This document shows positions 46,941-63,813 of a stretch of DNA of 64,000 nucleotides, piece after piece (the first letter of the stretch is position 1; every line of letters starts with the position of its first letter). A program made the translations under genes and the position numbers. The notes beneath the pieces were generated by a model. It worked only from the letters and a program-made list of their open reading frames with translations, was not told the DNA's origin and searched no databases. Source of the stretch: Rhizobiales bacterium SYSU XM002 (GTDB taxonomy: Bacteria > Pseudomonadota > Alphaproteobacteria > Rhizobiales > Beijerinckiaceae); NCBI GenBank assembly GCA_009846685.1, contig VWVY01000001.1:744001-808000 (forward strand). The letters are read 5' to 3'.

Positions 46941-47984
46941 CTAGCGGGGCCTCTCCTCGTAATAGCCAAGCTTTTCCTGCAGCGGCCCGTCGTGGATGCG
47001 GATCATGAACGCATCCTCGCTTTCCGCCCTGTGCTCGATGGCAGCGAAAACGGGCGCGGAGACCACATCCTTCGCCTTCCAGTCATGGCGGACGCCGTCG
47101 ATGACCGAATATCCATGCCCGGAAATGACGTGAAATACTGCGCTCGATGATTTGCGCGGCGGTCTCACGGCCTCGCCCTTCGGCAACAGCATCGCCGTGA
47201 AGCCCAGCGTCGGCAGGCAGGGCGCCCCGGTCTCCGGGTTGATGTAATCGAGTTCCGCCCCGCCGCTTCCGGCATGACGCGCGTAGTGGCGTAGCGCGTT
47301 TTCGGTGCGCTCCCACGGAAAGCGCATCATCGGATAGGGATTGGCGGGCGGGCGATCGCGCCGTCGCGGTGGCGCCAGCCCGGCCGCTCGGTATTCCACT
47401 TCTGACGGGTCCGGCCGGTTGCGCGGTGCCTGCAACGGTCCCTCCACGGCATAGGAACCTTCGAGGTAATAGAACAGCGGCAGATCGAGCGCATCGAGCC
47501 AGATCACCGGCTCCTCGCCCGAGTGGCCATGATCGTGCCAGCAGCCGCCGGGCGTGAGGATGAGATCACCGGCCTTCATCGGCAACCTGTCGCCATCGAC
47601 GACGGTGTAACCGCCCTCGCCTTCCACGACGATGCGCGCCGCGCTCGGCGTGTGGACATGCGCCGGCGCAGTCTCACCCGGCAACAGCAATTGCAGACCA
47701 ACGTAAATGGTCGAGGACACCTGCATCGCGCCCGCCCCTCGCCCCGGATCGACGAGAAAGAGCACGCGCCGCTCGGCCTTCTCGACCGGTGTCAGTTCTC
47801 CGGCTCTCAGGAGCAGCGGGCGGATCGCCGCGTAGGACCACGCGTGCGCCTTCGTTACCGGGATCGGCGTATTGTGCGGGAGGACCTTGCGCATCTGCGG
47901 CCAGAGCGGCGCGACGTCGATACCGCTCATCGCCTCACGATAATCCGGCGGCAATTCCTCCAAAGTCCCGAGCTGGGTCGCCAT
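46941..47984 (-). CDS. gtdA: Gentisate 1,2-dioxygenase
   Basis: This 347 aa bicupin iron enzyme opens the gentisate ring to maleylpyruvate. Metal ligands are visible in AHVHTPSAARIVVEG (His109, His111) and in CWHDHGHSG (His150). The second cupin around FHVISGHGYSVIDG also fits, as does the C-terminal RIHDGPLQEKLGYYEE ending. A strong GGAGG precedes the ATG. It is divergent from a MarR gene. The maleylpyruvate isomerase and fumarylpyruvate hydrolase are not in this window. Confidence 0.93.
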   Translation of the reverse strand: MATQLGTLEELPPDYREAMSGIDVAPLWPQMRKVLPHNTPIPVTKAHAWSYAAIRPLLLRAGELTPVEKAERRVLFLVDPGRGAGAMQVSSTIYVGLQLLLPGETAPAHVHTPSAARIVVEGEGGYTVVDGDRLPMKAGDLILTPGGCWHDHGHSGEEPVIWLDALDLPLFYYLEGSYAVEGPLQAPRNRPDPSEVEYRAAGLAPPRRRDRPPANPYPMMRFPWERTENALRHYARHAGSGGAELDYINPETGAPCLPTLGFTAMLLPKGEAVRPPRKSSSAVFHVISGHGYSVIDGVRHDWKAKDVVSAPVFAAIEHRAESEDAFMIRIHDGPLQEKLGYYEERPR

Positions 47985-48004
47985 CCTCGCCTCCTTTTTT
48001 TGAA

Positions 48005-48054
48005 AAGCTACCGAGGCTACGGACAGCGGTCAATCGCATGCTTATTATTCGAAT
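48005..48054. promoter_or_regulatory. gtdA promoter with candidate MarR operator
   Basis: On the minus strand TTGACC (48028-48033), a 17-base spacer, then TAGCTT (48005-48010) drive gtdA. Just upstream of the -35 is the palindrome ATTCGAAT (48047-48054) within TTATTATTCGAATGC, a plausible MarR-type operator between the divergent genes. Confidence 0.4.
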
Positions 48055-48103
48055 GCTTGCTGCCTGCGCTGGACTTGATAGGGTCTGAAGCGAGGAGAAT
48101 ACG

Positions 48104-48607
48104 ATGAACACGCCCGATACCACTCTGCGCCCCGGCGAGCGGCTTGAGATTTACGATATGCCGGGTCATCTGATCCGGCGGATGCAGCAGGCCTCCGTCG
48201 CGATTTTCGACAACGAGGTTCGCGCTGCCGGGGTCGATATCACCTCGGTCCAGTTCGCCGCGATGATGAAGATCGCATCCGAACCCGGCATCGATCAGGC
48301 AAGCGTCGCGCAGGCTATTGCCTACGACCGGGTAACGATCGGCGGGGTGGTGGATCGGCTGGAGGCCAAGGGATTCGTCCGGCGCGAGATCGACAGGCGC
48401 GACCGGCGCGCGCGGCGGCTCTATCTCGAAAAAAAGGGCGAAGCAGTGCTGGCCCATGTCCGTCCCGTCGTCCGGGAGGCGCAGGACAAGATCCTCGCCG
48501 GGCTCGACGGGGCCGAGCGAGACATGCTGACCGCGCTCCTGCGCAAGGCGCTCGACCATGTTGGCGATGTGACGCGCACACCGATGCGGCTGCCACAGGT
48601 GGGCTAG
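48104..48607 (+). CDS. MarR-family transcriptional regulator
   Basis: This 167 aa protein starts at ATG 48104 behind GAGGAGAATACG. It has a winged-helix core: QASVAQAIAYDRVTIGGVVDRLEAKGFVRREIDRRDRRARRLYL, the wing DRRDRRARR being typical. The N-terminal dimer helix contains HLIRRMQQASVAIF. MarR proteins often sense aromatic acids. Given its divergent position, regulation of gtdA by gentisate or a precursor is inferred. Confidence 0.93.
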   Translation: MNTPDTTLRPGERLEIYDMPGHLIRRMQQASVAIFDNEVRAAGVDITSVQFAAMMKIASEPGIDQASVAQAIAYDRVTIGGVVDRLEAKGFVRREIDRRDRRARRLYLEKKGEAVLAHVRPVVREAQDKILAGLDGAERDMLTALLRKALDHVGDVTRTPMRLPQVG

Positions 48608-52088: not shown

Positions 52089-53969
52089 TCACTCGGTGAG
52101 CGAAACGCCGAGATAGAGTTCCGTGCCTTCCCCCGGCGCCGAGCGAATCGTGAGCCGCGCGCCGATCATTTCGGCCTGCTCCCGGACGCCAACCAGCCCG
52201 AACCGCCCCTCGCGATCGATCGACGGATCGAACCCGACGCCGTCGTCTATCACCGCGACCTCGAGGAACGGCCGCCCCCCGACGATATTGACGCGCGAGC
52301 GGATCGAGACCTCCTGCGCCCGCGAGTGGTTCTCCACGTTGCGCAATGCCTCCTCGACGATGCGATAAACGGCTTCCGTCCGCTCGTCCGCCAGCAGCGC
52401 CGATGTTTCGTCGTATTCAACGATAACATTGGTGATCTGGCGCCTGTTGGCCTTGATCGCAAGCCGCCGCAGCGCCGAGCCGAAGCCATCCTCCCGCACT
52501 GGCGAATATCGGAGGTTCACCACCGCCTCGCGCGAGCGGGCCAGCCCATCCTGAGCCGCCTCCTCGGCGCGGGCGAGCTCCGCTGCCGCCTGCTCTGGTT
52601 CAGCGGGCGCAATCTTGCGGATGAGGCGGATCTGCGTCAGCAACGCCAGCATGGAATGAGCCAGCGTATCGTGAAGGTCACGCGAGATGCGCAGGCGTTC
52701 ACGCGTCACCGCCACCCGCCGCGCTTCATGCCCCATACGTTCGATTTCCCGCGTCCGATCGGCAACACGCGCGTCGAGTTCGGTATTGAGCGTCGCCAGA
52801 TCGCGGTTTGCGGTCTGCAGCGTCGAGACGAGCGCCCGCATCGATCCACCGATACGCCCGGCTTCATCGGCGCCCGCATCGACATCGAGTTCTTCCGTCT
52901 CGCCAAGCCGCAGCCTGTCCGCGGCGTGGGCCAGGCGTTTCAGGCGGCGAGTCATTCGCCGTGTGACAAAGGCCGCTGCGAGTGCACTCGCCAGCCCACC
53001 GGCGAAGATCAGGCCGAAAATCGACCCCGAGGCCCTGTAGGCAGGCAGGAAAGCGGTCGCAACCGGTTCGCGGACAATCACGGTCCAGCCGAGTCCCCGA
53101 AAATCGCCGAACCCCTGACTACGGGCAACGCCGATCAGGTAATCGCCATCGACGATGCTGGATTCGCGCCCGGAATAGCGCGACAGATCGAAGCGTGCTC
53201 CGGCTGGCAGGTTCTCCGAACCGAGCAGCGCCGTGCCGTCGACACCGAGCAGCAGGATCTCGACTGATGGGCGCCCCGTGAGCATGGTGGCGGCATTGCG
53301 CCGCAGGATCTCGATCCAGGACCAGCCAAGCGCAACACCGAGGATGGCCTTCAGTTCGCCCTTCGAATCGAGCACCGGCGCCGAGAGATCGACGAAGCGT
53401 CGTGGCTCGCCCTCGATAAGCCGGGGCAGTTGCCGGTCGAGCAGAACGCCGGCATGAACATCGGAGACCGTCGGCCCCGTGAAACCTTGCGTGAACCACG
53501 GGCGGGAGGCGACGTTCTGCCCTGTGAAAACGCCATCCGTCGCGACGACGATCGTTCCGTCGAGATCGGCGAGGCCAGCCCATTCGACTTCGGGCAGGGC
53601 CTGGCGGAGATTGTCGAGAACACCGGGATCAACCATCGCCACCCGTGCATCGCCGGGAATCGCGAGCATTCGTCCCGCGATCGAAATCCACTGCCGTCGC
53701 CCGGCGAGATTGGCGTCGATGGTGTCGATCAGCCGGCGGGCGTGGCCGGCGTAGAGCTGCCCGATCTCGCGCTCGATCGCGCGGCTGGCCGCCCGCACGG
53801 TGACGATGCCGGTGATCGCCGCGATAACCAGCATCAGCCCGCAAATCGTCCAGCCGATCGCCGCAGCGAGCGAGGCTCGCGGATCGAGCGCACGCCAGAA
53901 CGGCGCAGCAGCCGGTGAAGCCGCGCCGCTTGTTCGCTCACCGTGGTTGCCAAAGGCTGTCTCGGCCAT
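52089..53969 (-). CDS. Sensor histidine kinase with Cache-type periplasmic domain
   Basis: This 626 aa protein has TM1 (about 34-58), a large periplasmic sensor (60-310; the WAGLADLDGTIVVATDGVFTG, SRPWFTQGF and DVHAGVLL pattern fits Cache/PDC), TM2 (316-336), a HAMP and coiled coil (337-420), and HisKA_3 with His433 in ISRDLHDTLAHSM. HATPase has N-box EEALRNVENHS and G-box DDGVGFD, GRFGLVGVREQAEMIG. ATG 53969 has GGAG upstream. It pairs with the divergent NarL/FixJ regulator. Cache domains often bind organic or amino acids, so the quiC/ABC substrate is a candidate ligand. Confidence 0.9.
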   Translation of the reverse strand: MAETAFGNHGERTSGAASPAAAPFWRALDPRASLAAAIGWTICGLMLVIAAITGIVTVRAASRAIEREIGQLYAGHARRLIDTIDANLAGRRQWISIAGRMLAIPGDARVAMVDPGVLDNLRQALPEVEWAGLADLDGTIVVATDGVFTGQNVASRPWFTQGFTGPTVSDVHAGVLLDRQLPRLIEGEPRRFVDLSAPVLDSKGELKAILGVALGWSWIEILRRNAATMLTGRPSVEILLLGVDGTALLGSENLPAGARFDLSRYSGRESSIVDGDYLIGVARSQGFGDFRGLGWTVIVREPVATAFLPAYRASGSIFGLIFAGGLASALAAAFVTRRMTRRLKRLAHAADRLRLGETEELDVDAGADEAGRIGGSMRALVSTLQTANRDLATLNTELDARVADRTREIERMGHEARRVAVTRERLRISRDLHDTLAHSMLALLTQIRLIRKIAPAEPEQAAAELARAEEAAQDGLARSREAVVNLRYSPVREDGFGSALRRLAIKANRRQITNVIVEYDETSALLADERTEAVYRIVEEALRNVENHSRAQEVSIRSRVNIVGGRPFLEVAVIDDGVGFDPSIDREGRFGLVGVREQAEMIGARLTIRSAPGEGTELYLGVSLTE

Positions 53970-53992
53970 CAAAGTCTCCGATCAAAGCTATT

Positions 53993-54028
53993 GTTCCGGC
54001 TTCGACCGTGCCTGTCGAGGCCCGGAAC
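53993..54028. promoter_or_regulatory. Inverted repeat in the kinase/regulator divergent gap
   Basis: GTTCCGG (53993-53999) ... CCGGAAC (54022-54028), with inner TCGAC (54002-54006) / GTCGA (54014-54018). This imperfect long palindrome lies in the 92 bases between the two divergent start codons and could be a binding site for the paired regulator. Confidence 0.4.
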
Positions 54029-54061
54029 GGTCGGAACGTCCGGCGGGAGCCTCCAGAGACC

Positions 54062-54727
54062 GTGAAAGACAGCGAACCGATCCGGATTCTCATCGCGGAA
54101 GACCAGCAACTGATCCGCCGCGCCTTCGCCAAGATCCTCGAACTGGAAGCCGACATCCGCGTCGTCGGGCAAGCAGCGGACGGCGCCGAAGCAATCGAGC
54201 TTGCCCGCCGTCACCGGCCCGACATCGTGCTGATGGATCTGCAGATGCCACGGGTCAGCGGCGCTCAGGCCACGCAACGTATTGTCGCGGAATTGCCGGA
54301 TACGCAGGTCGTCGTGTTGACGACCTTTGATACCGACGAACTCGTCTTCGAAGCGATCGGCGCTGGGGCACAGGCCTATCTTCTCAAGGACGCGACCGAA
54401 ACGGAAATTCTGGAAACCATCCGCCGTGTCCATCGGGGAGAATCCCATCTCTCGCCCAATATCTCACGGAAGCTCCTTGAGGAATTCCGTCGCTCACGGC
54501 CCACGGGCCGGCATGAGGCCGGCTGGGAAGAGTCCGAGCCCTTGACCGAACGCGAAGAGGAGATTCTCGCACTCATAACGCAAGGCCGCTCCAACCGCGA
54601 TATCGCCGACAAGATCTTCCTCGCGGAAGGCACGGTGAAGAATTACGTGAGCCGCATCATGGAAAAACTAGGCGTTTCCTCGCGTACCGAACTCGCCGTG
54701 CTGGCCCTCAAGCGCAAGCGGCCGTGA
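54062..54727 (+). CDS. NarL/FixJ-type response regulator
   Basis: This 221 aa protein starts at GTG 54062 with GGGAG upstream (12 bases, slightly long). Receiver domain 1-120: the acid pair E13-D14, phosphoacceptor Asp59 in VLMDLQMP, T88 region LTTFD and Lys109. The HTH (about 160-215; LTEREEEILALITQGRSNRDIADKIFLAEGTVKNYVSRIMEKLGV) is the LuxR type. It is divergent from its likely partner kinase and upstream of quiC and the ABC genes, so control of that operon is inferred. Confidence 0.93.
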   Translation: MKDSEPIRILIAEDQQLIRRAFAKILELEADIRVVGQAADGAEAIELARRHRPDIVLMDLQMPRVSGAQATQRIVAELPDTQVVVLTTFDTDELVFEAIGAGAQAYLLKDATETEILETIRRVHRGESHLSPNISRKLLEEFRRSRPTGRHEAGWEESEPLTEREEEILALITQGRSNRDIADKIFLAEGTVKNYVSRIMEKLGVSSRTELAVLALKRKRP

Positions 54728-54751
54728 ACGATCCATGATCTCCAAACGACA

Positions 54752-54767
54752 CGTGACTTTCGTCACG
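54752..54767 (+). promoter_or_regulatory. Palindrome upstream of quiC
   Basis: CGTGAC-TTTC-GTCACG is a perfect 6+6 inverted repeat about 105 bases before the quiC ATG and 25 after the response-regulator stop. There is no T-run, so it is more likely an operator or a short stabilising hairpin than a terminator. Confidence 0.4.
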
Positions 54768-54871
54768 CCTTGCGCATGACCTTGGGGAGATGAATTGTGC
54801 ACCCGATACCGCCATGATCCATCGCGTCCGAACCTGCCGACAGAGCAGGCGGACCAAGGGAGGACAGGCGG

Positions 54872-56782
54872 ATGCGCCGCTCGATCGCCACGGTTTCGCT
54901 GAGCGGAACCTTGCCCGAGAAGCTTGAAGCCATCGCCGTGGCCAAATTCGACGGCGTCGAGATTTTCGAGAACGATCTGGTCTTCTCGTCCCTTTCGCCC
55001 GGCGAGGTCCGCGCGATCTGCGGCGATCTCGGCCTGACGATCGATCTGTTCCAGCCTTTCCGCGATCTCGAAGGCGTGGATGACGCTCAATTTCTCCGGA
55101 ACCTCGAGCGGGCAAAACGAAAATTCGACCTGATGGTCGAACTCGGCGCTCCCTTGCTGCTCGTCTGCGCCAACGCGACGCCCAGCGCCATCGACGATGC
55201 TGCGCGTTCTGCTGCGCAGATGCACCGCATGGCTGAACTTGCCCAGACGCGCGGGATCAAGATCGCCTTCGAGGCTCTCGCCTGGTCTACACATATCAAC
55301 ACATTCGAACGGGCCTTCGAAATTGTCCGCCATACGGACCATCCCCACCTCGGCCTCGCGCTCGACAGTTTCCACACCCTGGCGTTGCCGAACGATTGGT
55401 CTGGGCTCACCGGTCTCCCCGGCGAACGCATTTTCTTCATGCAGATTGCCGATGCACCGAAGCTCGACATGGCGAGCCTGATGCTCTCCCGCCATCATCG
55501 CTGTCTGCCGGGACAGGGAGAAATGGATGTCGCAGGCTTCGTCGATGCCGCATTGAGGGCTGGCTACACGGGCACGATCAGCCTCGAGATCTTCAACGAC
55601 GGGTTCCGCTCCGCCCCGCCACGCCAGACGGCGCGCGACGGCATGCGTTCGCTGCTCTATGTGGAAGAACAGGTGCGCCGGCAGCAGGAACAGGGCAGCA
55701 CGCCGCGGCCACCGCGCCGGGTGAGCCTGTTCGATCCGCCGGCGCCAACCGAGCCGGAGGGCATTGCCTTCATCGAATTCGCTGTCGACGAGGCGAGCCA
55801 CCGTACGCTCGCTCGATATCTCGAAAGCCTGGGCTTCCACCGGGTCGGCAGGCATCGTTCCAAGGATGTCGAGCTTTACGGACAGGGCGACATTCGCCTG
55901 GTCCTCAATGGCGAACGGGATTCGCTCGCGCACTCGTTTTTTCTGCTGCACGGCCCGTCGGTCTGCGCGCTCGCCTTCGAGGTTGATGACCCGGCCCGCG
56001 CGCTCGGTCGCGCGGAGGCCTACGGCTGCCAGCGGCTCGAAGGCCGTCTTGGCCACAACGAGATTCCGATCCCCGGCACCCGCGCGGTTGACGGCACCCT
56101 GATCTATTTCAACGAACGTGGTGCGGACGGTCGCCTGACCTTCGAGGCGGATTTTGAGCCGGAAAAGCCGGCGAAGAAGTCCCCTGCTCCCTTGGCCAAC
56201 CGCGTCGATCACATCGCGCAGGCCCTGCCGGAAGACAGTCTCGACGCCTCGGTCCTTTTTTATCGCGCAGTGATGAACCTCACGCCCGAGGCGACAATGG
56301 TCCTCGCCGACCCCTACGGTGTCGTGCGCAGCCGGGCAATTTCGAGCGACAACCGGAAGGTCCGTTTTCCACTCAACATCGCTCGCGGCCGCAACACCGG
56401 CACGGCGCGCTCGATCGGCAGCTATTCCGGCGCCGGCGTCCATCATATCGCGCTGGAAACGGCCGACATCTTCGCAACCGCCCGCCGGCTGAAGGCAGCC
56501 GGTGCGCCGGTTCTGACGATTCCGCAGAATTACTACGACGATCTCGGCGCACGTTATGCACTCGATCCCGTGCGGCTTGCCGAACTCGCAAGCCTCAACC
56601 TACTTTACGAACGTGCTGGTGACAGCGAATTCCTGCATCTCTACACGCTGCCATTCGAGGAGCGCTTCTTCTTCGAATTCGTGCAGCGCATCAACGGATA
56701 CGACCATTACGGTGCCACGAACGCCGGAATGCGTATGGCTGCGCTCGCCCAATCGCGACGCAGCGGCGATTACGGTCTGTAA
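54872..56782 (+). CDS. quiC: 3-Dehydroshikimate dehydratase (QuiC-type fusion with HPPD-like domain)
   Basis: This 636 aa protein starts at ATG 54872 behind GGAGGACAGGCGG. The N-terminal xylose-isomerase-like TIM barrel (1-275) has metal-type residues Glu134 (KIAFEAL), Asp165/His168 (LALDSFHTL) and Glu239 (ISLEIFND). The C-terminal VOC/hydroxyphenylpyruvate-dioxygenase-like part (290-636) keeps a His447, His525, Glu602 triad. Such fusions (QuiC1 of Pseudomonas) convert 3-dehydroshikimate to protocatechuate in quinate and shikimate use. The role of the second domain is unclear. The ABC genes follow 45 bases downstream. Confidence 0.9.
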   Translation: MRRSIATVSLSGTLPEKLEAIAVAKFDGVEIFENDLVFSSLSPGEVRAICGDLGLTIDLFQPFRDLEGVDDAQFLRNLERAKRKFDLMVELGAPLLLVCANATPSAIDDAARSAAQMHRMAELAQTRGIKIAFEALAWSTHINTFERAFEIVRHTDHPHLGLALDSFHTLALPNDWSGLTGLPGERIFFMQIADAPKLDMASLMLSRHHRCLPGQGEMDVAGFVDAALRAGYTGTISLEIFNDGFRSAPPRQTARDGMRSLLYVEEQVRRQQEQGSTPRPPRRVSLFDPPAPTEPEGIAFIEFAVDEASHRTLARYLESLGFHRVGRHRSKDVELYGQGDIRLVLNGERDSLAHSFFLLHGPSVCALAFEVDDPARALGRAEAYGCQRLEGRLGHNEIPIPGTRAVDGTLIYFNERGADGRLTFEADFEPEKPAKKSPAPLANRVDHIAQALPEDSLDASVLFYRAVMNLTPEATMVLADPYGVVRSRAISSDNRKVRFPLNIARGRNTGTARSIGSYSGAGVHHIALETADIFATARRLKAAGAPVLTIPQNYYDDLGARYALDPVRLAELASLNLLYERAGDSEFLHLYTLPFEERFFFEFVQRINGYDHYGATNAGMRMAALAQSRRSGDYGL

Positions 56783-56827
56783 ACCAGCGGACCGTTCCAA
56801 CAAGCCCGAAGGGCGATAGGAGGAAAC

Positions 56828-57976
56828 ATGACCTTGACCAAACGTTCCCTGATGCTCGCCACCGTGGCGCTGGCTGCTTCGCTCGGCGCGGCGGCTGCGC
56901 AGGATGCCGTGAAGATCGTCGGCGTCGTCGAACTCTCCGGCGCGGGCGCGACCGCCGGCACCAACTACAAGAACGGCGCGCAGCTTGCCGTCGACGAGAT
57001 CAACGCCGCCGGTGGCATTCTCGGCAAGAAAATCGAGTTCGTGGTCTATGACACCCAGACCAACCCCGGCAATACCCGCGCCGCCGTGCAGCGCGGCGTC
57101 GACGAAGGCGCTTTCGCGATCTTCGGGCCCGTGTTCTCCGGCCCCATCGGCGCCTCGATGCAGATCGCCCAGAAGGCCGGCGTGCCGCAGATCGTCGGTG
57201 GCGAAGCGGCAGGGCTCACCAAGCAGGGCGTAACGACCCTGTTCCGCACCTCGCTCAACCAAGCCGACGCGATGCCCAAACTCGCGAACTACTTCAAGGA
57301 TGCGGTCAAGGCTTCGTCCGTCGCGGTGGTCTGGGTCAACAACGACTTCGGCAAGGGTGGCCGCGACGCCATTATCCCGGAGCTCCAGAAGCGCGGCATC
57401 AAGATCGCTGCCGACATCGCCACGGAAAGCGGACAGGCCGATTTTGCAGCCGACGCCATCAAGGTGAAGAACGCCAATGCCGACGCCGTCTTCGTCTATC
57501 TCAACGAGGAAGAGAGCGCCCGCTTCCTGCGCGCGATCAAGCAGCAGGGTTACGACAAGCCGATCGTCGGCGAAACCACCCTCCTCGGCGCGAAGGTGAT
57601 CGAGCTTGCCGGCGCGGCAGCGGAAGGCGCGAAGGGCCATGTCGGCCTTTCGGTCGATGCCCCGGTTGCCGGCTTCGCGGAGTTCGGCAAGAAGTTCCAG
57701 GCGAAGTTCAACTACAAGTCGGATCACAACGGCATCAAGGGTTACTCGGGCATGTACATGCTCAAGTCCGTGGTCGAGAAGACCGGAAAGTTCGACAAGG
57801 AAGCCTTCCTGAAGGCCGCGCATGGCGCCGTCATCAAGGTCAAGGACGTTCCGGGTATCCTCATCGACTCCAAGTGGGACGATAACGGCGACGTGGATCG
57901 CGAGAGCTTCCTGGCCGAGGTCAAGGGCGGCAAGCAGGTGATCACCGGCACGTTGCCGCCGGTCAACAAGTTCTGA
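56828..57976 (+). CDS. ABC transporter substrate-binding protein, branched-chain (HAAT) type
   Basis: This 382 aa periplasmic protein has a signal peptide (MTLTKRSLMLATVALAASLGAAAAQ, cleavage about residue 24) and the type I periplasmic-binding fold. Features are VKIVGVVELSGAGATAGTNYKNGAQLAVDEINAAGGILGKKIEFVVYDTQTNPGN, VWVNNDFGKGGRDAI and GYSGMYMLKSVVEKTG. The family binds amino acids and many aromatic acids. With quiC just upstream, a hydroaromatic or aromatic ligand is inferred. AGGAGGAAAC gives a very strong ribosome site, expected for the most abundant component. Confidence 0.92.
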   Translation: MTLTKRSLMLATVALAASLGAAAAQDAVKIVGVVELSGAGATAGTNYKNGAQLAVDEINAAGGILGKKIEFVVYDTQTNPGNTRAAVQRGVDEGAFAIFGPVFSGPIGASMQIAQKAGVPQIVGGEAAGLTKQGVTTLFRTSLNQADAMPKLANYFKDAVKASSVAVVWVNNDFGKGGRDAIIPELQKRGIKIAADIATESGQADFAADAIKVKNANADAVFVYLNEEESARFLRAIKQQGYDKPIVGETTLLGAKVIELAGAAAEGAKGHVGLSVDAPVAGFAEFGKKFQAKFNYKSDHNGIKGYSGMYMLKSVVEKTGKFDKEAFLKAAHGAVIKVKDVPGILIDSKWDDNGDVDRESFLAEVKGGKQVITGTLPPVNKF

Positions 57977-57991
57977 TTGCTGAATGATTCT

Positions 57992-58015
57992 GGCCGGGCT
58001 CTCTGGAGCCTGGCC
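57992..58015 (+). other. Intercistronic hairpin between binding-protein gene and livH
   Basis: GGCCGGGCTC-TCTG-GAGCCTGGCC forms a 10-bp stem with one G-U pair, 15 bases past the binding-protein stop and about 100 before livH. Such stems protect the upstream mRNA and raise binding-protein output over the membrane genes. No T-run follows. Confidence 0.65.
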
Positions 58016-58117
58016 GGTTATCCCAACCGCATCCATCGCGATGCGGGGCGGATCGTCATATCCGCAAGCCCGGTCTATCGCCGTGGTTCGCGCGAATATC
58101 GGCTGAGGAAAAGCCCG

Positions 58118-58996
58118 ATGGACCAACTCCTGCAACTCGTGCTCGCCGGCCTGGCGACCGGTTCGATCTATGCGCTGGCGGCGATAGGCTTCACGCTCGT
58201 CTGGCAGACCTCGCAGACGATCAACTTCGCGCAAGGCGAATTCGTGATGCTGCCGGCGATTCTCGTGCTGGCGGCGGTGAAGTTCCTGCACCTGCCATTG
58301 CCGGCAGCGGTGCTGCTGGCGACGGGGGCGTTCCTTCTTCTGTTCGGATTCGGCTTCAAGAAGTTCCTTGTCGACCCGATGCTCCGCCACGGCGTGCTCC
58401 CGCTCGCGATTGCCACGATGGCGCTCTCAATCCTGATGAAGGAGGGTGCGAAGGACGGTTTCTCCGCCGAAGCCCAGCAGTTTCCCTCGCTGGTGCCGGA
58501 CGGCGCGGTGAACCTCTTCGGCGCGACGCTTTCCCTCCGCGACATCGCGATCTTCATCGTCGCCGTGGTTGCTATCGTCCTGCTGCAACTATTCGTCACC
58601 CGCACCCGCACGGGCCGGATGATGCAGGCGACGGCGCAGAACCCCGACGTCGCCAAGATCCTCGGCATCCCGACCGAGCAGATGATCCTGCTGACATTCC
58701 TCATCAACGCCGGGCTCGCGGTGCTGGCCTCATTTCTGATCTCGCCTATCTATCTCGCCAAGTTCTCGAACGGCGAGGTGATCGGCACGGCGGCCTTCAT
58801 CGCCGCCATCGTCGGTGGCTTCAATCAGGTGCGGGGCGCCCTGTTGGGCGGCTTCATCGTGGGCCTCGTCGACAACCTCGCTGCCGCCTATGTGTCGAGC
58901 GCCTATCGTGCAGCCGTGCCACTGGCGCTTCTGGTGCTCGTCATCCTGTTCAAACCCGAGGGTCTGCTCGGCCGCAAGGAGGAGCGCACGGTATGA
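58118..58996 (+). CDS. livH: Branched-chain-type ABC transporter permease (LivH)
   Basis: This 292 aa membrane protein starts at ATG 58118 behind GAGGAAAAGCCCG. About eight helices, with TGSIYALAAIGFTLVWQTSQTINFAQGEFVMLP at the start and the coupling motif GEVIGTAAFIAAIVGGFNQVRGALLGGFIVGLVDNLAA, are typical of LivH. Its stop overlaps the livM ATG (ATGA). The additional in-frame codons upstream of the ATG cover the intercistronic hairpin and were excluded. Confidence 0.95.
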   Translation: MDQLLQLVLAGLATGSIYALAAIGFTLVWQTSQTINFAQGEFVMLPAILVLAAVKFLHLPLPAAVLLATGAFLLLFGFGFKKFLVDPMLRHGVLPLAIATMALSILMKEGAKDGFSAEAQQFPSLVPDGAVNLFGATLSLRDIAIFIVAVVAIVLLQLFVTRTRTGRMMQATAQNPDVAKILGIPTEQMILLTFLINAGLAVLASFLISPIYLAKFSNGEVIGTAAFIAAIVGGFNQVRGALLGGFIVGLVDNLAAAYVSSAYRAAVPLALLVLVILFKPEGLLGRKEERTV

Positions 58997-60021
58997 CGCC
59001 CCCTTCCCCACTCTCGCGCCTTGATCTCAACCTGCTGGTGCTGCTTCTCGGTGCGGCGATCCTCTGGTTCGTGCCAGCGGGCATGAAGAGCTACGGCATC
59101 TACGTGATTTCCTTCTGGCTGGTGATGTCGATCGCGGCGATGGGCCTCAATCTCACGCTCGGCTATGCCGGCCTCAAGAGCCTCGCGCAGGCAGCCTTCC
59201 TCGGCATCGGCGCCTATACGACTGCGCTGATGACCGCGAAAGGCGGCATCGCCGGCCCGGTCTGGTCATGGCCGCTCGCGTTTCTCGCTTCCGGAGCGCT
59301 CACCTTCCTCGCCGGCATCCTGCTCGGCTTCCCAGCGCTCCGCGTGAAGTTCCACTATCTCGCCTTCGTGACGCTCGCCTTCGCGACGCTGATGTTCTTG
59401 ATCTTCCGCAACGAGCAATGGCTGACCGGCGGCGTCTATGGCTTTCCCAATATCCCGAGGCCGACGCTGTTCGGCGTCAAACTGTTGAACGATCTCGCCT
59501 TCTTCCGCTTTCTTCTGGTGGTGACTCTCGCGCTTAGCGTTGCGATGTGGTGGCTGCTGCGCTCGCCCTGGGGCCGGGCCTTCATGGCTCTGCGCGAAAA
59601 CCCGCTGCGCGCCGCGAGCCTGGGGGTGAACCTGCGCAGCTATACCCTCCTCGCCTTCGCGATCGGCGCCGGTTACGGCGGTTTCGCTGGCGCGCTTTAC
59701 GCACCGATGGTCGAGTTCATCGATCCCGCTCCTTTCGCGATTTCGGCCTCCTTCGTGCTGCTGCTGACGGTCGTGGTCGGCGGTCAGGGCTATTTCCTCG
59801 GCCCCTTCCTCGGCGCGGCGTTTTCCTACGTTCTGCCGGAGATGCTTCGGGTCACCGGTGGCTATTACCTCCTCGTCTATGCCGCTCTTGTACTGGCGCT
59901 GCTGCTCGTCTCGCCGCAGGGCCTTCTTGGTCTCGTCGAGAAGCTGCGTGAACGCCGCCGCGTGAAGGCCGCGCAGGCAATGCGGGACGCGTCGAAAGTC
60001 ATGCTGGAGGCGAGGCCATGA
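58993..60021 (+). CDS. livM: Branched-chain-type ABC transporter permease (LivM)
   Basis: This 342 aa membrane protein with about nine helices has SLAQAAFLGIGAYTTALM, ALRENPLRAASLGVNLRSYTLLAFAIGAGYGGFAGALYAPM and the coupling segment TVVVGGQGYFLGPFLGAAFSYVLPEML, matching LivM. A long charged tail (RERRRVKAAQAM) ends it. It overlaps both livH (4 bases) and livG (4 bases, ATGA). Confidence 0.95.
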   Translation: MTPPSPLSRLDLNLLVLLLGAAILWFVPAGMKSYGIYVISFWLVMSIAAMGLNLTLGYAGLKSLAQAAFLGIGAYTTALMTAKGGIAGPVWSWPLAFLASGALTFLAGILLGFPALRVKFHYLAFVTLAFATLMFLIFRNEQWLTGGVYGFPNIPRPTLFGVKLLNDLAFFRFLLVVTLALSVAMWWLLRSPWGRAFMALRENPLRAASLGVNLRSYTLLAFAIGAGYGGFAGALYAPMVEFIDPAPFAISASFVLLLTVVVGGQGYFLGPFLGAAFSYVLPEMLRVTGGYYLLVYAALVLALLLVSPQGLLGLVEKLRERRRVKAAQAMRDASKVMLEARP

Positions 60022-60788
60022 GCGCGCGTGACCATCTCGCTCGCGGTGCACCGATGCTGCGAGTGGAGAATCTCAGCAAGCATTTCGGCGGCATCCGCGC
60101 CGTCGATGACGTCACTTTCGAGGTCAACGAGGGTGAAATCCTCGGCATCATCGGCCCGAACGGCTGCGGCAAATCGACCCTGTTCAACTGCATCCTCGGA
60201 CAGTTGCAGCCGACCGACGGCCGCGTGACCCTCGGTGGCGAGGAGATCACCGGGCTCTTCCCGGCCGATCTCAACCGGCGCGGCGTCTCGCGGACATTCC
60301 AGCTCCTTCAGGTCTTTCCCAACCTGACGGTTCGCGAGAACCTGATCCTCGCCGGGCAGGAACACGTGGGCTCGATGATGAGCCGTCTTTTCGGCCCGCG
60401 CGATGCCGGGCTTGGCACCGCCGCGGAAAAGATGATCGGCTTCTTCAACCTTGGCCACCTGGCCGATTCCAAAGCCGGCGGTCTGTCCTACGGGCAGCAG
60501 AAACTGCTCGATGCCGCGATGGCCTTCATGGCCGGCCCGCGCCTCGTGCTGCTCGACGAGCCGGCGGGCGGGGTGAATCTCACGATGCTCGCCTCGCTCA
60601 AGGAGCGCCTGCGCGCGATCAACCGCGAACAGGGCGCAACCTTCGTCGTGATCGAACACAACATGGACTTCGTGATGAGCCTCTGCGACCGGGTGATCGT
60701 GATGGCGGAAGGCAAGGTGCTCGCCACGGGCACGCCGGACGAAATCCGCGCCGATCCCGCTGTTATCGAAGCCTACCTCGGACATTGA
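60018..60788 (+). CDS. livG: Branched-chain-type ABC transporter ATPase (LivG)
   Basis: This 256 aa ATPase has Walker A GPNGCGKST, ABC signature GGLSYGQQKLLD, Walker B RLVLLDEPAGGVN and H-loop FVVIEHNMDFV. In LivG-type ATPases the C-terminus is of this short kind, ending VIEAYLGH. An internal ATG (MLRVENLSKHFGG) could be the true start, since motif spacing is normal from either. It works as a heterodimer with LivF. Confidence 0.95.
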   Translation: MSARDHLARGAPMLRVENLSKHFGGIRAVDDVTFEVNEGEILGIIGPNGCGKSTLFNCILGQLQPTDGRVTLGGEEITGLFPADLNRRGVSRTFQLLQVFPNLTVRENLILAGQEHVGSMMSRLFGPRDAGLGTAAEKMIGFFNLGHLADSKAGGLSYGQQKLLDAAMAFMAGPRLVLLDEPAGGVNLTMLASLKERLRAINREQGATFVVIEHNMDFVMSLCDRVIVMAEGKVLATGTPDEIRADPAVIEAYLGH

Positions 60789-60796
60789 GGTCTGCC

Positions 60797-61546
60797 ATGC
60801 TCCCGATCGACAACCCTGTCCTTGAAGTCGCGGAACTGGTTTCCGGCTACGGCAAGATGACGATCCTCAACGGCACCACCTTTTCGGTGCCGCGCGGCTC
60901 GATCACCACCATCATCGGCCCGAACGGCGCAGGAAAATCGACCGTGTTCAAAACGATCTTCGGCGTTCTGCCGGCGCGGCAGGGCAAGGTGCGGCTGAAC
61001 GGAAAGGACGTGACCAATTTCACCCCGCGCCAGATGCTCGAAGCCGGTGCGATCTATGTGCCGCAAGGGCGCAACATCTTCCCGGAACTGACCGTGCGCC
61101 ACAACATCGAGCTGGGATCCGTGGCGGCCGGCGCGGCGATCGCGGACATGCCGGCCCGGATAGAAGCTGCACTCGACCGCTTCCCCGTCCTTCGGCGGAA
61201 GGCCGACCAACAAGCTTCCACGCTCTCCGGCGGCGAGCAGAAGCAACTTGAAATCGTCCGCGGCCTGCTTCTCGATCCGAGACTGATGCTGATCGACGAG
61301 CCGTCGATCGGCCTATCGCCGAAGATGGTCGCGGAAACCTTTGCGATCCTCACCGAACTCCGCGATAGAGGCGTCTCGATCCTGATGATCGAGCAGAACG
61401 CGCGCTCGGCACTGGCGATATCAGACTACGGGCTCGTACTCGAACTTGGCCAGACGCGGCTGTTCGATCGGGCGGAAGCGATTCTCGCCGATCCGCGCGT
61501 CGGACAGCTTTTTCTCGGTGGCGGAATGGCCGAAGCTGCCCCGTGA
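60797..61546 (+). CDS. livF: Branched-chain-type ABC transporter ATPase (LivF)
   Basis: This 249 aa ATPase starts at ATG 60797 with TTGAGG upstream. Walker A GPNGAGKST, signature LSGGEQKQLEI, Walker B LMLIDEPSIGLS and H-loop ILMIEQNARSAL are visible, and VPQGRNIFPELTVRHNIELG is the LivF Q-loop style. An in-frame TTG at 60785 is less likely. It completes the five-gene importer. No terminator is evident after it. Confidence 0.95.
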   Translation: MLPIDNPVLEVAELVSGYGKMTILNGTTFSVPRGSITTIIGPNGAGKSTVFKTIFGVLPARQGKVRLNGKDVTNFTPRQMLEAGAIYVPQGRNIFPELTVRHNIELGSVAAGAAIADMPARIEAALDRFPVLRRKADQQASTLSGGEQKQLEIVRGLLLDPRLMLIDEPSIGLSPKMVAETFAILTELRDRGVSILMIEQNARSALAISDYGLVLELGQTRLFDRAEAILADPRVGQLFLGGGMAEAAP

Positions 61547-61686: not shown

Positions 61687-63813
61687 ATGCGGGGACAGGC
61701 GCACCGGATGACGCAAGGCCGGGTGGCGATCCTTGAGATCGACAATCCCCCGGTCAATGCCATGTCACAGTCGGCCCGGCGCGCCCTTTGGGACGAGATC
61801 ACCCGCGCGGACTCAGAACCTGAAATCGGCGCCATCGTCATCACCGCGCGTGGACCCGATTTCGTCACCGGCGCCGATCTAACAGAAATTGGCCACAAGC
61901 CGCGCGAGCCGCATATGCCGGATGTCGTGGACCGGATCGAGGCCTCATCGAAACCGGTTGTCGTCGCCTGGCACGGTCGGGTGCTGGGCAGCGGCTGCGA
62001 GATCGGCCTTGCTGCCCACAAGCGTGTCATGGCGCGCGATGCGCGCGTCGGCCTGCCGGAAGTGCGGCTCGGTTTGGTGCCGGGAGCCGGGGGAACCCAG
62101 CGTCTTCCACGCCTCGTCGGCCTCCCTGCCGCGCTCGACATGATCGCCACCGGGCGGATGATCGATGCCGTCGAGGCTTTCGCCATAGGTCTATGCGATG
62201 AGGTGACCGACGGCGACGTTCGCGCTGCCGCCATCAACGTGGCGCAGGGATTGATCGGCAAGATGCAGCCGCGCCTCTCGTTGCGGGCGCCCACGCCACC
62301 CGAGCCGGGAGCGTGGGAGGCGATGGTCCGGCGCGTGAAACAGGAGGCGCGCGCCCGGCTTGCTCCGCTCCGCGTGATCGATCTCGTCGGCCAGACACTG
62401 AGCACCGGGTTTAGTCAGGGCGCATCGCAGGAACGTCACGCCTTTCTCGATCTTGCCGCCTCCGACCAATCGCGGGCGCTGCGTCATCTCTTCCTCGCCG
62501 AGCGGCGCATCCGCCATATCCACGGGTTGGAGGGGATCGAAGCGCAGCCGATTGCGAGCGTCGGCATTCTCGGTTCCGGCCAGGTCGCGACCGGCATCGC
62601 CACCCTGTGCATCGAGCAGGGCGTGCCGGTCAGTCTCGCGGCGGGCTCGGCCGCAGGCGTTCAGCAGGCGCGCGAAAAGGTCGCCACGCTTGTCGCCCGC
62701 GCCATCCGCGCCGGACGGATACCGGCGCACAAGCAGCAGGAAATCGCACGCCGCGTTGGCTTCACCAATGACTGGGCCCATCTCGCGCGCTGTGATCTCG
62801 TTATCGACGCCTCAGCCGACGAGGGGCCGGCAGTCACGCGCCTGCGCGAACTCGACGAGATGCTCCCGGCGAGGGTCCCCCTTGCCGTGTCCTATCCGGG
62901 AGCGGACTGGTCATCCCTTGCCGCGCTTGTCCGTCACCCCGAACGGTTGATCGGTCTCCATTTCTTCGCTCCGATCCCGCTGATCCGCGCGGTCGAGCTA
63001 GTCCGCTTCCCCGAGACCACCCCGTCATGCCTGGCGACCGTTCTCGGCTTGCTCCGGCGGATGGATCGGATCGCTGTGCCGTGTCGGCCCGCGTCCGAGC
63101 TTGTCGGCAACCGCATTCTCGCGCGATTCCGCCAGCAGGCCGAATTCATGCTGGAGGAAGGCGCGAAGCCCGCGGCGATCGATACCGCGCTCGAACAGTT
63201 TGGCCTCGCGCTCGGCCCCTTCGCGGCACAGGATCTCGCCGGGCTCGATATTGCCTGGGCGCGTCGTCGCAAGGAAGAGCGCCCGGAGGGTCATCGCAGC
63301 AGCGTTCTGCTTGATGCCTTGTGCCGGCTCGGCCGCTTCGGCCAGAAGACGGGTCGTGGCTGGTATCGTTACGTCGAAGGACGGCGTGAGCCCGATCCCG
63401 AGGTCGAGGCGCTTGTCGCGCGCGCCGCCGCACGATCCGGGTTGCCGCAGCAGCGTTTCTCTATCGAACTGATCCAGATGCGCCTGCTGGCGACAATGGC
63501 CAATGAAGGCGCAAGACTTCTGGCCGAGAAGGTCGTCGAGGCCCCCTTCGCGATCGATCTGGCCATGGTCCATGCTTTCGGGTTTCCGGCCTGGCAGGGC
63601 GGGCCGATGCAGGCCGCCGATGCGCGTGGCCTGCGGTCTATTCTCGCGCTCGCCGAGGAAAGCGCCAACCGCGACGGGCCGGACTACGCAGTCGCCCCGC
63701 TCCTCCGGGATCTTGTCGCGACGGGAAAGAACTTCGCTTCGCTCAACACCGATGCCGAACCTGCTGCTGTGACCCAGCAGGGAGGTGCCCGCCTCGCAGC
63801 GCAGACGGCCTAG
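61687..63813 (+). CDS. FadJ-type bifunctional enoyl-CoA hydratase / 3-hydroxyacyl-CoA dehydrogenase, unusual dehydrogenase motifs
   Basis: This 708 aa protein has an N-terminal crotonase domain (1-200) that keeps both catalytic Glu residues (Glu105 in GSGCEIGLAA, Glu125 in LPEVRLG). The NAD-dehydrogenase part (290-680) has VGILGSGQVATGI in place of the usual GxGxMGxGIA. The conserved NTSSL segment reads SYPGADWSSL. His425 and Glu437 (GLHFFAPIPLIRAVELV) and the VGNRI Asn are kept. The dehydrogenase activity is thus less certain than hydratase. The start (ATG 61687, or ATG 61708) is not fixed by a strong ribosome site. It is co-directional with the liv genes, 140 bases downstream. Confidence 0.87.
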   Translation: MRGQAHRMTQGRVAILEIDNPPVNAMSQSARRALWDEITRADSEPEIGAIVITARGPDFVTGADLTEIGHKPREPHMPDVVDRIEASSKPVVVAWHGRVLGSGCEIGLAAHKRVMARDARVGLPEVRLGLVPGAGGTQRLPRLVGLPAALDMIATGRMIDAVEAFAIGLCDEVTDGDVRAAAINVAQGLIGKMQPRLSLRAPTPPEPGAWEAMVRRVKQEARARLAPLRVIDLVGQTLSTGFSQGASQERHAFLDLAASDQSRALRHLFLAERRIRHIHGLEGIEAQPIASVGILGSGQVATGIATLCIEQGVPVSLAAGSAAGVQQAREKVATLVARAIRAGRIPAHKQQEIARRVGFTNDWAHLARCDLVIDASADEGPAVTRLRELDEMLPARVPLAVSYPGADWSSLAALVRHPERLIGLHFFAPIPLIRAVELVRFPETTPSCLATVLGLLRRMDRIAVPCRPASELVGNRILARFRQQAEFMLEEGAKPAAIDTALEQFGLALGPFAAQDLAGLDIAWARRRKEERPEGHRSSVLLDALCRLGRFGQKTGRGWYRYVEGRREPDPEVEALVARAAARSGLPQQRFSIELIQMRLLATMANEGARLLAEKVVEAPFAIDLAMVHAFGFPAWQGGPMQAADARGLRSILALAEESANRDGPDYAVAPLLRDLVATGKNFASLNTDAEPAAVTQQGGARLAAQTA

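Follow-up and report, generated by a model that had tools for sequence, protein, structure and literature searches.

A quiC and ABC-importer operon beside a two-component system in Rhizobiales bacterium SYSU XM002: a candidate uptake and breakdown module for hydroaromatic acids

What brings a sensor histidine kinase and its response regulator next to a gene for a 3-dehydroshikimate dehydratase-like enzyme (quiC) and the genes of an ATP-binding cassette (ABC) importer? The question is posed by a stretch of 64,000 nucleotides, here called the window, from the 3.46 Mb genome of Rhizobiales bacterium SYSU XM002 (G000; window at C1:744001-808000). A preliminary description had placed a Cache-type kinase divergent from a NarL/FixJ-type regulator, followed on the plus strand by quiC, a binding-protein gene, livH, livM, livG and livF. 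Domain searches and coordinates bear out both parts, with the genes lying where that description put them. On balance we favour the view that these genes form a two-component-controlled module for the uptake and breakdown of a carboxylated hydroaromatic acid (shikimate, quinate or 3-dehydroshikimate).

Co-inheritance of the pair, quiC and the importer

The searches covered 61 genomes (17 of the genus, that of the window included), 397 genomes of the family and 397 drawn from the order. Genes of relatives were predicted with a purpose-made gene finder and identified through BLAST comparison with a small set of reference proteins, in some cases also with Pfam or NCBIfam. Among the 61 genomes, kinase matches of 72-73% identity were found in G005 and G008, both of the same genus, each beside a regulator, quiC and the importer. 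In the family search (E 1e-30) the kinase was matched in 79 of 397 genomes; near-full-length matches at no less than 72% identity were restricted to G000, G005 and G008, the next best being partial and distant (35% over residues 43-426 in G088 and 31% over residues 43-580 in G303).

Five of the 397 genomes from the order gave kinase matches at E 1e-60: that of the window, G637, G681, G530 and G666. G637, which like G530 belongs to another family, holds the whole unit in the same order, with identities to the window proteins of 53% (kinase), 71% (regulator), 61% (QuiC), 77% (binding protein), 82% (LivH), 74% (LivM), 80% (LivG) and 75% (LivF). In G530 the kinase gene is divided over two contig ends, and the regulator gene and quiC are followed by a binding-protein gene cut by the contig end. 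The kinase of G681 lies at a contig start; quiC is absent from that contig and the remainder of the unit was not seen. The preliminary description would have been refuted by a gene order found in one genome only; the order recurs in G005, G008 and G637, and in G530 up to the binding protein. No relatives of the kinase turned up when viral contigs were scanned.

The loci of G000, G005, G008, G530 and G637 form a single clade in trees of QuiC (Shimodaira–Hasegawa-like approximate likelihood-ratio test, SH-aLRT, 100) and of the binding protein (100/99). For the first QuiC tree six duplicate loci were removed and 97 QuiC rows thinned to 69; for the second trees the long rows L155 (QuiC), L232 and L242 (binding protein) were dropped and QuiC was thinned to 42 rows. 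QuiC of the five loci and a protein from a Massilia plasmid fall together in a branch composed of beta- and gammaproteobacterial sequences and some from alphaproteobacteria (Azospirillum, Acetobacteraceae), separate from the branch of other Hyphomicrobiales (SH-aLRT 98 in the first tree, 96 in the second). The binding protein is nearest to importers of the same family without the pair (93/91), and the unit looks like a mosaic. With its order kept across two families and a single clade in both trees, a chance neighbourhood of the pair was rejected; as judged from these comparisons, this is one co-inherited unit, kept in two families.

Two side observations concern the relatives. Beyond the kinase gene, the G637 locus (L252:11382-18318) carries genes for two FAD_binding_2 oxidoreductases, a sugar-isomerase-like barrel and an AroE-family protein, and sets resembling this group occur near importers in L229, L231, L240 and L241. 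The G666 kinase and regulator genes (L254:8872-11709) have as neighbours a peptidase M1 gene and a long frame that we read from its sequence as nonribosomal peptide synthetase-like.

A predicted operator and its second occurrence

The 12-mer TGACTTTCGTCA lies between the regulator gene and quiC in all five loci, followed 10-11 bp further on by TGAC. Its distance to the quiC start is 118 bp in G000, 123 bp in G005, 122 bp in G008, 145 bp in G530 and 148 bp in G637. It was spotted in the first three of these and found exact in the other two, which were retrieved afterwards. No longer word is shared by all five regions; the longest in 200 single-base shuffles, a control that does not keep the relatedness of the regions, had 6 bases. 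It is missing from the 1,842,878 bases of 96 loci that lack the pair; quiC is matched in 93 of these, the exceptions being L081-L083, and four of the control regions are present twice (L139/L074, L140/L076, L149/L075 and L153/L080). The loose motif TGAC-N4-GTCA was uninformative (28 found against 28.1 expected in the 96 loci), so that only the full 12-mer is of use. With at most one mismatch, TGACTTTCGTCAYG has four sites in G000, three in G005 and five in G008, and the reversed pattern has one in each. Besides the site before quiC, the 14-base pattern has three in G000 at this tolerance, all within predicted genes, and these were set aside. We predict that TGACTTTCGTCA is likely to be the site of this regulator.

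Class-II 3-deoxy-d-arabino-heptulosonate 7-phosphate (DAHP) synthase is the entry enzyme of the shikimate pathway. Away from quiC the exact 12-mer occurs at two sites (G005:C18, L205:9926; G008:C28, L218:9411), both preceding a gene for this enzyme in the same orientation, 59 bp (G005) and 69 bp (G008) from its start. On PF01474 the G005 protein reaches 697.6 bits, and that of G008 is 95% identical to it; by eye, the flanks of the two sites are dissimilar. Upstream regions of DAHP synthase genes were read in G005 and G008. In G000 a second site of this kind was not detected at up to one mismatch, a threshold that a more-mismatched site could have escaped. As a tentative proposal, which we hold to be less probable than its opposite, the regulator of one membrane sensor might, once an outside hydroaromatic acid is sensed, act at the same operator before both the import and breakdown operon and class-II DAHP synthase, adjusting the use of such acids and entry into the shikimate pathway jointly.

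Enzyme, importer and sensor

The QuiC-type protein is an AP_endonuc_2 barrel fused to an HPPD-like domain, and its best solved match is PDB entry 5hmq (E 1.6e-209). Ten active-site residues are given for QuiC1 and QsuB in the part of the source seen (PMC7442255), and all ten are conserved at the same positions in the window protein. Genes pcaH and pcaG of the window genome exceed curated cut-offs, and a pcaB-like gene falls somewhat below its own. The earlier proposal that 3-dehydroshikimate is turned to protocatechuate is supported as likely chemistry by the ten residues and the genomic pcaHG. G000 has two genes with a shikimate dehydrogenase N-domain. One stands amid apparently housekeeping genes; the second, on C10, is paired with a Gfo/Idh-type gene, and relatives of these two genes border quiC in several of the importer clusters that have no kinase pair. 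There is one copy of AroQ in G000, one in G008 and three in G005, and AroQ directly adjoins an AroE-type gene in G005 and G008.

The importer has the composition of a Liv/HAAT-type ABC system: Peripla_BP_6, two BPD_transp_2 permeases and two ABC_tran ATPases. Within the 61 genomes we found 22 copies of the binding protein with identity of at least 42%. For thirteen of them a quiC match is found no more than about 10 kb away (G000, G005:C8, G008, G027:C40, G004, G006, G003, G010, G002, G028, one of two in G035, G018:C353 and G007), with the quiC of G010 cut by a contig end and the link in G007 spanning two contig ends. Another five (G030, G018:C260, the second in G035, G005:C21 and G049) have an AroE-family gene within 10 kb, in three cases identified by BLAST only, at 35-38%. 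Given this linkage, the combination of importer and quiC is common and two-component control is the variant. A LysR gene of one type is the neighbour in five of the ten quiC-linked copies without the pair (G027, G004, G006, G002 and G028). At E 1e-40 an orthologue of this LysR was found in six of the 11 genomes searched; it is absent from G000, G008, G003, G011 and G030, and in G005 it occurs only at the second importer locus. As G003, G011 and G030 also lack it, loss of the LysR is not confined to genomes with the pair.

Among plasmids, 14 records match the binding protein at E 1e-60, and six were read. In three of the six, quiC follows a LysR gene in the same gene run. It lies about 8.7 kb from the importer in Paracoccus sp. 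MA and about 7.6 kb in Massilia putida; in the Rhizobium sp. ACO-34A plasmid a shikimate dehydrogenase gene adjoins the importer, with no quiC in view. Three further plasmid quiC regions hold TetR, IclR or LysR genes and TRAP, AEC or MFS carriers. In Rhizobium an SMP-30/gluconolactonase-type gene stands between livF and quiC (L238:13489-14322, L239:13451-14320), which suggests a lactone step in those clusters.

The predicted model of the binding protein (predicted local distance difference test, pLDDT, 88.6) has a Liv-type fold, and its solved neighbours include complexes with leucine, 4-hydroxybenzoate and p-coumarate. At the positions that we take to contact leucine in the Liv protein, Tyr202 and Glu226, the window protein has Asn226 and Thr250, respectively; Thr250 is invariant across 15 aligned proteins and Asn226 is not. 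All five importer proteins score below the NCBIfam Liv cut-offs. An ordinary branched-chain amino acid importer was rejected on these scores and residues.

The kinase exceeds the Pfam cut-offs for HAMP, HisKA_3 and HATPase_c. With a HisKA_3 and HATPase_c kinase and a regulator carrying Response_reg and GerE, the pair is a two-component system of the NarL type. The predicted sensor model, of moderate confidence (mean pLDDT 75.6; predicted template-modelling score 0.57), matches solved tandem-Cache domains, including those of PctA and Mlp24. The ligands of its nearest solved folds range over amino acids, taurine, pyruvate and others, and the idea of reading off a single ligand was rejected, as the matches point to no one ligand.

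Coordinates of the unit are collected in Table 1. The most likely start of the regulator, from comparison with G008, is the GTG at 54062. Read by eye, the kinase promoter has identical hexamers and spacing in G005 and G008. Gaps of 144 bp (regulator to quiC), 45 bp (quiC to binding protein) and about 141 bp (binding protein to livH) precede three successive 4 bp overlaps in the livH, livM, livG and livF run. After livF comes a FadJ-like gene (61687-63813, plus strand) with relatives of 60% (G005) and 58% (G008) at the equivalent place; another relative adjoins the importer of G011, where no quiC adjoins. A Cupin_2 gene and a divergent MarR-family gene at 46941-48607 of the window may perhaps belong to another aromatic pathway such as that of gentisate.

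Table 1. Features of the unit in window coordinates
Feature	Position	Strand	Remarks
Sensor histidine kinase (tandem-Cache sensor, HAMP, HisKA_3, HATPase_c)	52089..53972	-	Start TTG 53972 or ATG 53969
Sigma-70-like promoter site of kinase gene	53990..54018	-	TCGACA, 17, AACAAT
NarL-type response regulator	54062..54727	+	Response_reg and GerE
Predicted regulator site TGACTTTCGTCA	54754..54765		118 bp upstream of quiC start
Third TGAC	54777..54780		11 bp past the palindrome; 10-11 bp in all five loci
QuiC-type fusion (3-dehydroshikimate dehydratase-like barrel and HPPD-like domain)	54872..56782	+	
Periplasmic binding protein	56828..57976	+	Peripla_BP_6
LivH-type permease	about 58118..58996	+	
LivM-type permease	58993..60021	+	
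LivG-type ATPase	60018..60788	+	
LivF-type ATPase	60785..61546	+	

Interpretation and comparison with known systems

Our preferred reading builds on what is established from sequence: the genes themselves, inherited together in two families; the conserved site; the active-site residues of QuiC; and the presence of pcaHG, AroE-type and AroQ genes in the genome. The kinase would sense a hydroaromatic acid, or an accompanying compound, outside the cytoplasmic membrane. The regulator would then act at TGACTTTCGTCA before quiC, most likely switching on quiC and the importer. The acid would be imported by the binding protein and LivHMGF and converted by AroE-type and AroQ enzymes encoded elsewhere to 3-dehydroshikimate, from which QuiC would make protocatechuate, with pcaHG continuing.

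Several findings count against this reading. In G666 a pair related to this one (kinase 37%, regulator 64%) lies amid other genes, and 14.5 kb of that locus contain neither quiC nor the 12-mer. The kinase scores 19.1 bits on dCache_1, below the Pfam gathering cut-off of 45. The window QuiC has 791 bits on NCBIfam NF042435, where the equivalog cut-off is 1200, and we therefore call it QuiC-type and not an equivalog. Neither aroE nor aroQ lies inside the unit itself. A model search with TIGR03074 found no membrane pyrroloquinoline quinone dehydrogenase in G000, G005 or G008. The quiC of G003 (L072:12372-13600), one of the 13, has matches confined to residues 3-76 and 288-632, through either a deletion or faulty assembly, and four of the 22 importer copies (G011, G027:C22, G026 and G017) are near neither quiC nor an AroE-family gene in the stretches read.

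The alternative that survives best keeps the module and changes the signal: the kinase would respond to some cue other than the transported acid, be it protocatechuate, a different aromatic acid or a general nutritional signal. Sensor domains related at about 30% are numerous across the family, within proteins of other lengths, so that sequence does not tell the ligand, and the variety of ligands bound by its nearest solved folds points the same way. Since two families have retained the pair together with quiC and the importer, we judge a separate cue unlikely.

Less probable still is that the pair is a mere neighbour and the 12-mer the site of another regulator, for example one of general shikimate metabolism. 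The 144 bp between the regulator gene and quiC would fit such an arrangement, as would the 12-mer before DAHP synthase in G005 and G008, a comparison made within pair-bearing genomes. Against it, pair, quiC, importer and 12-mer occur together in five loci of two families, and the 12-mer is found in none of the 96 loci without the pair. That the importer carries a different compound, an aromatic or amino acid, and lies beside quiC since both serve aromatic catabolism seems very improbable: its solved relatives include binders of leucine, 4-hydroxybenzoate and p-coumarate and nine of the 22 copies are not near quiC, but 18 of the 22 are near quiC or an AroE-family gene and the importer falls below the cut-offs of the branched-chain amino acid models.

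If the module is as we propose, it points to a candidate family of ABC importers for shikimate-type acids, on which there is no paper among the matches listed, and offers a two-component system with a predicted operator. No title or abstract among the matches listed in the open-licence literature describes such a unit. The preliminary description held that known systems use LysR or IclR regulators and MFS importers. The importer part of this does not stand, for other Beijerinckiaceae, as well as Chelatococcus, Sinorhizobium and Rhizobium, have this ABC importer beside quiC where the pair is missing, often accompanied by a LysR and an aroE-type gene; the type of regulator is indeed unusual. The quiC–importer arrangement is common in Hyphomicrobiales, and the novelty lies in the two-component regulator alone.

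The closest systems are the unnamed clusters of Sinorhizobium americanum, Rhizobium sp. TCK and NXC14, Chelatococcus albus and other Beijerinckiaceae, which share an orthologous binding protein, LivHMGF and a QuiC-type fusion in one run. They differ in having LysR, TetR or no neighbouring regulator in place of the pair, aroE-type or Gfo/Idh genes within the cluster, a QuiC of another branch and no 12-mer. NarQ/NarL- and MctS/MctR-type systems provide the best NCBIfam matches of the kinase and regulator superfamilies, but the pair falls far below those equivalog cut-offs. PcaY_PP of Pseudomonas putida is a chemoreceptor, with a sensor that we take to be a four-helix bundle, whereas the sensor here belongs to a kinase. 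QuiC1 of P. putida and QsuB of Corynebacterium glutamicum are likewise two-domain dehydratases with the same ten active-site residues (PMC7442255, as far as seen), but the protein described here scores below the NCBIfam equivalog cut-off and is set in an ABC-importer operon. In the qsu system of C. glutamicum the use of quinate and shikimate is also controlled at the branch point with the shikimate pathway, there by the LysR-type QsuR, which, in the portion of the source consulted, answers to chorismate inside the cell (PMC11258901). If the DAHP synthase site is real, aromatic biosynthesis would here be tuned instead to hydroaromatics outside the cell.

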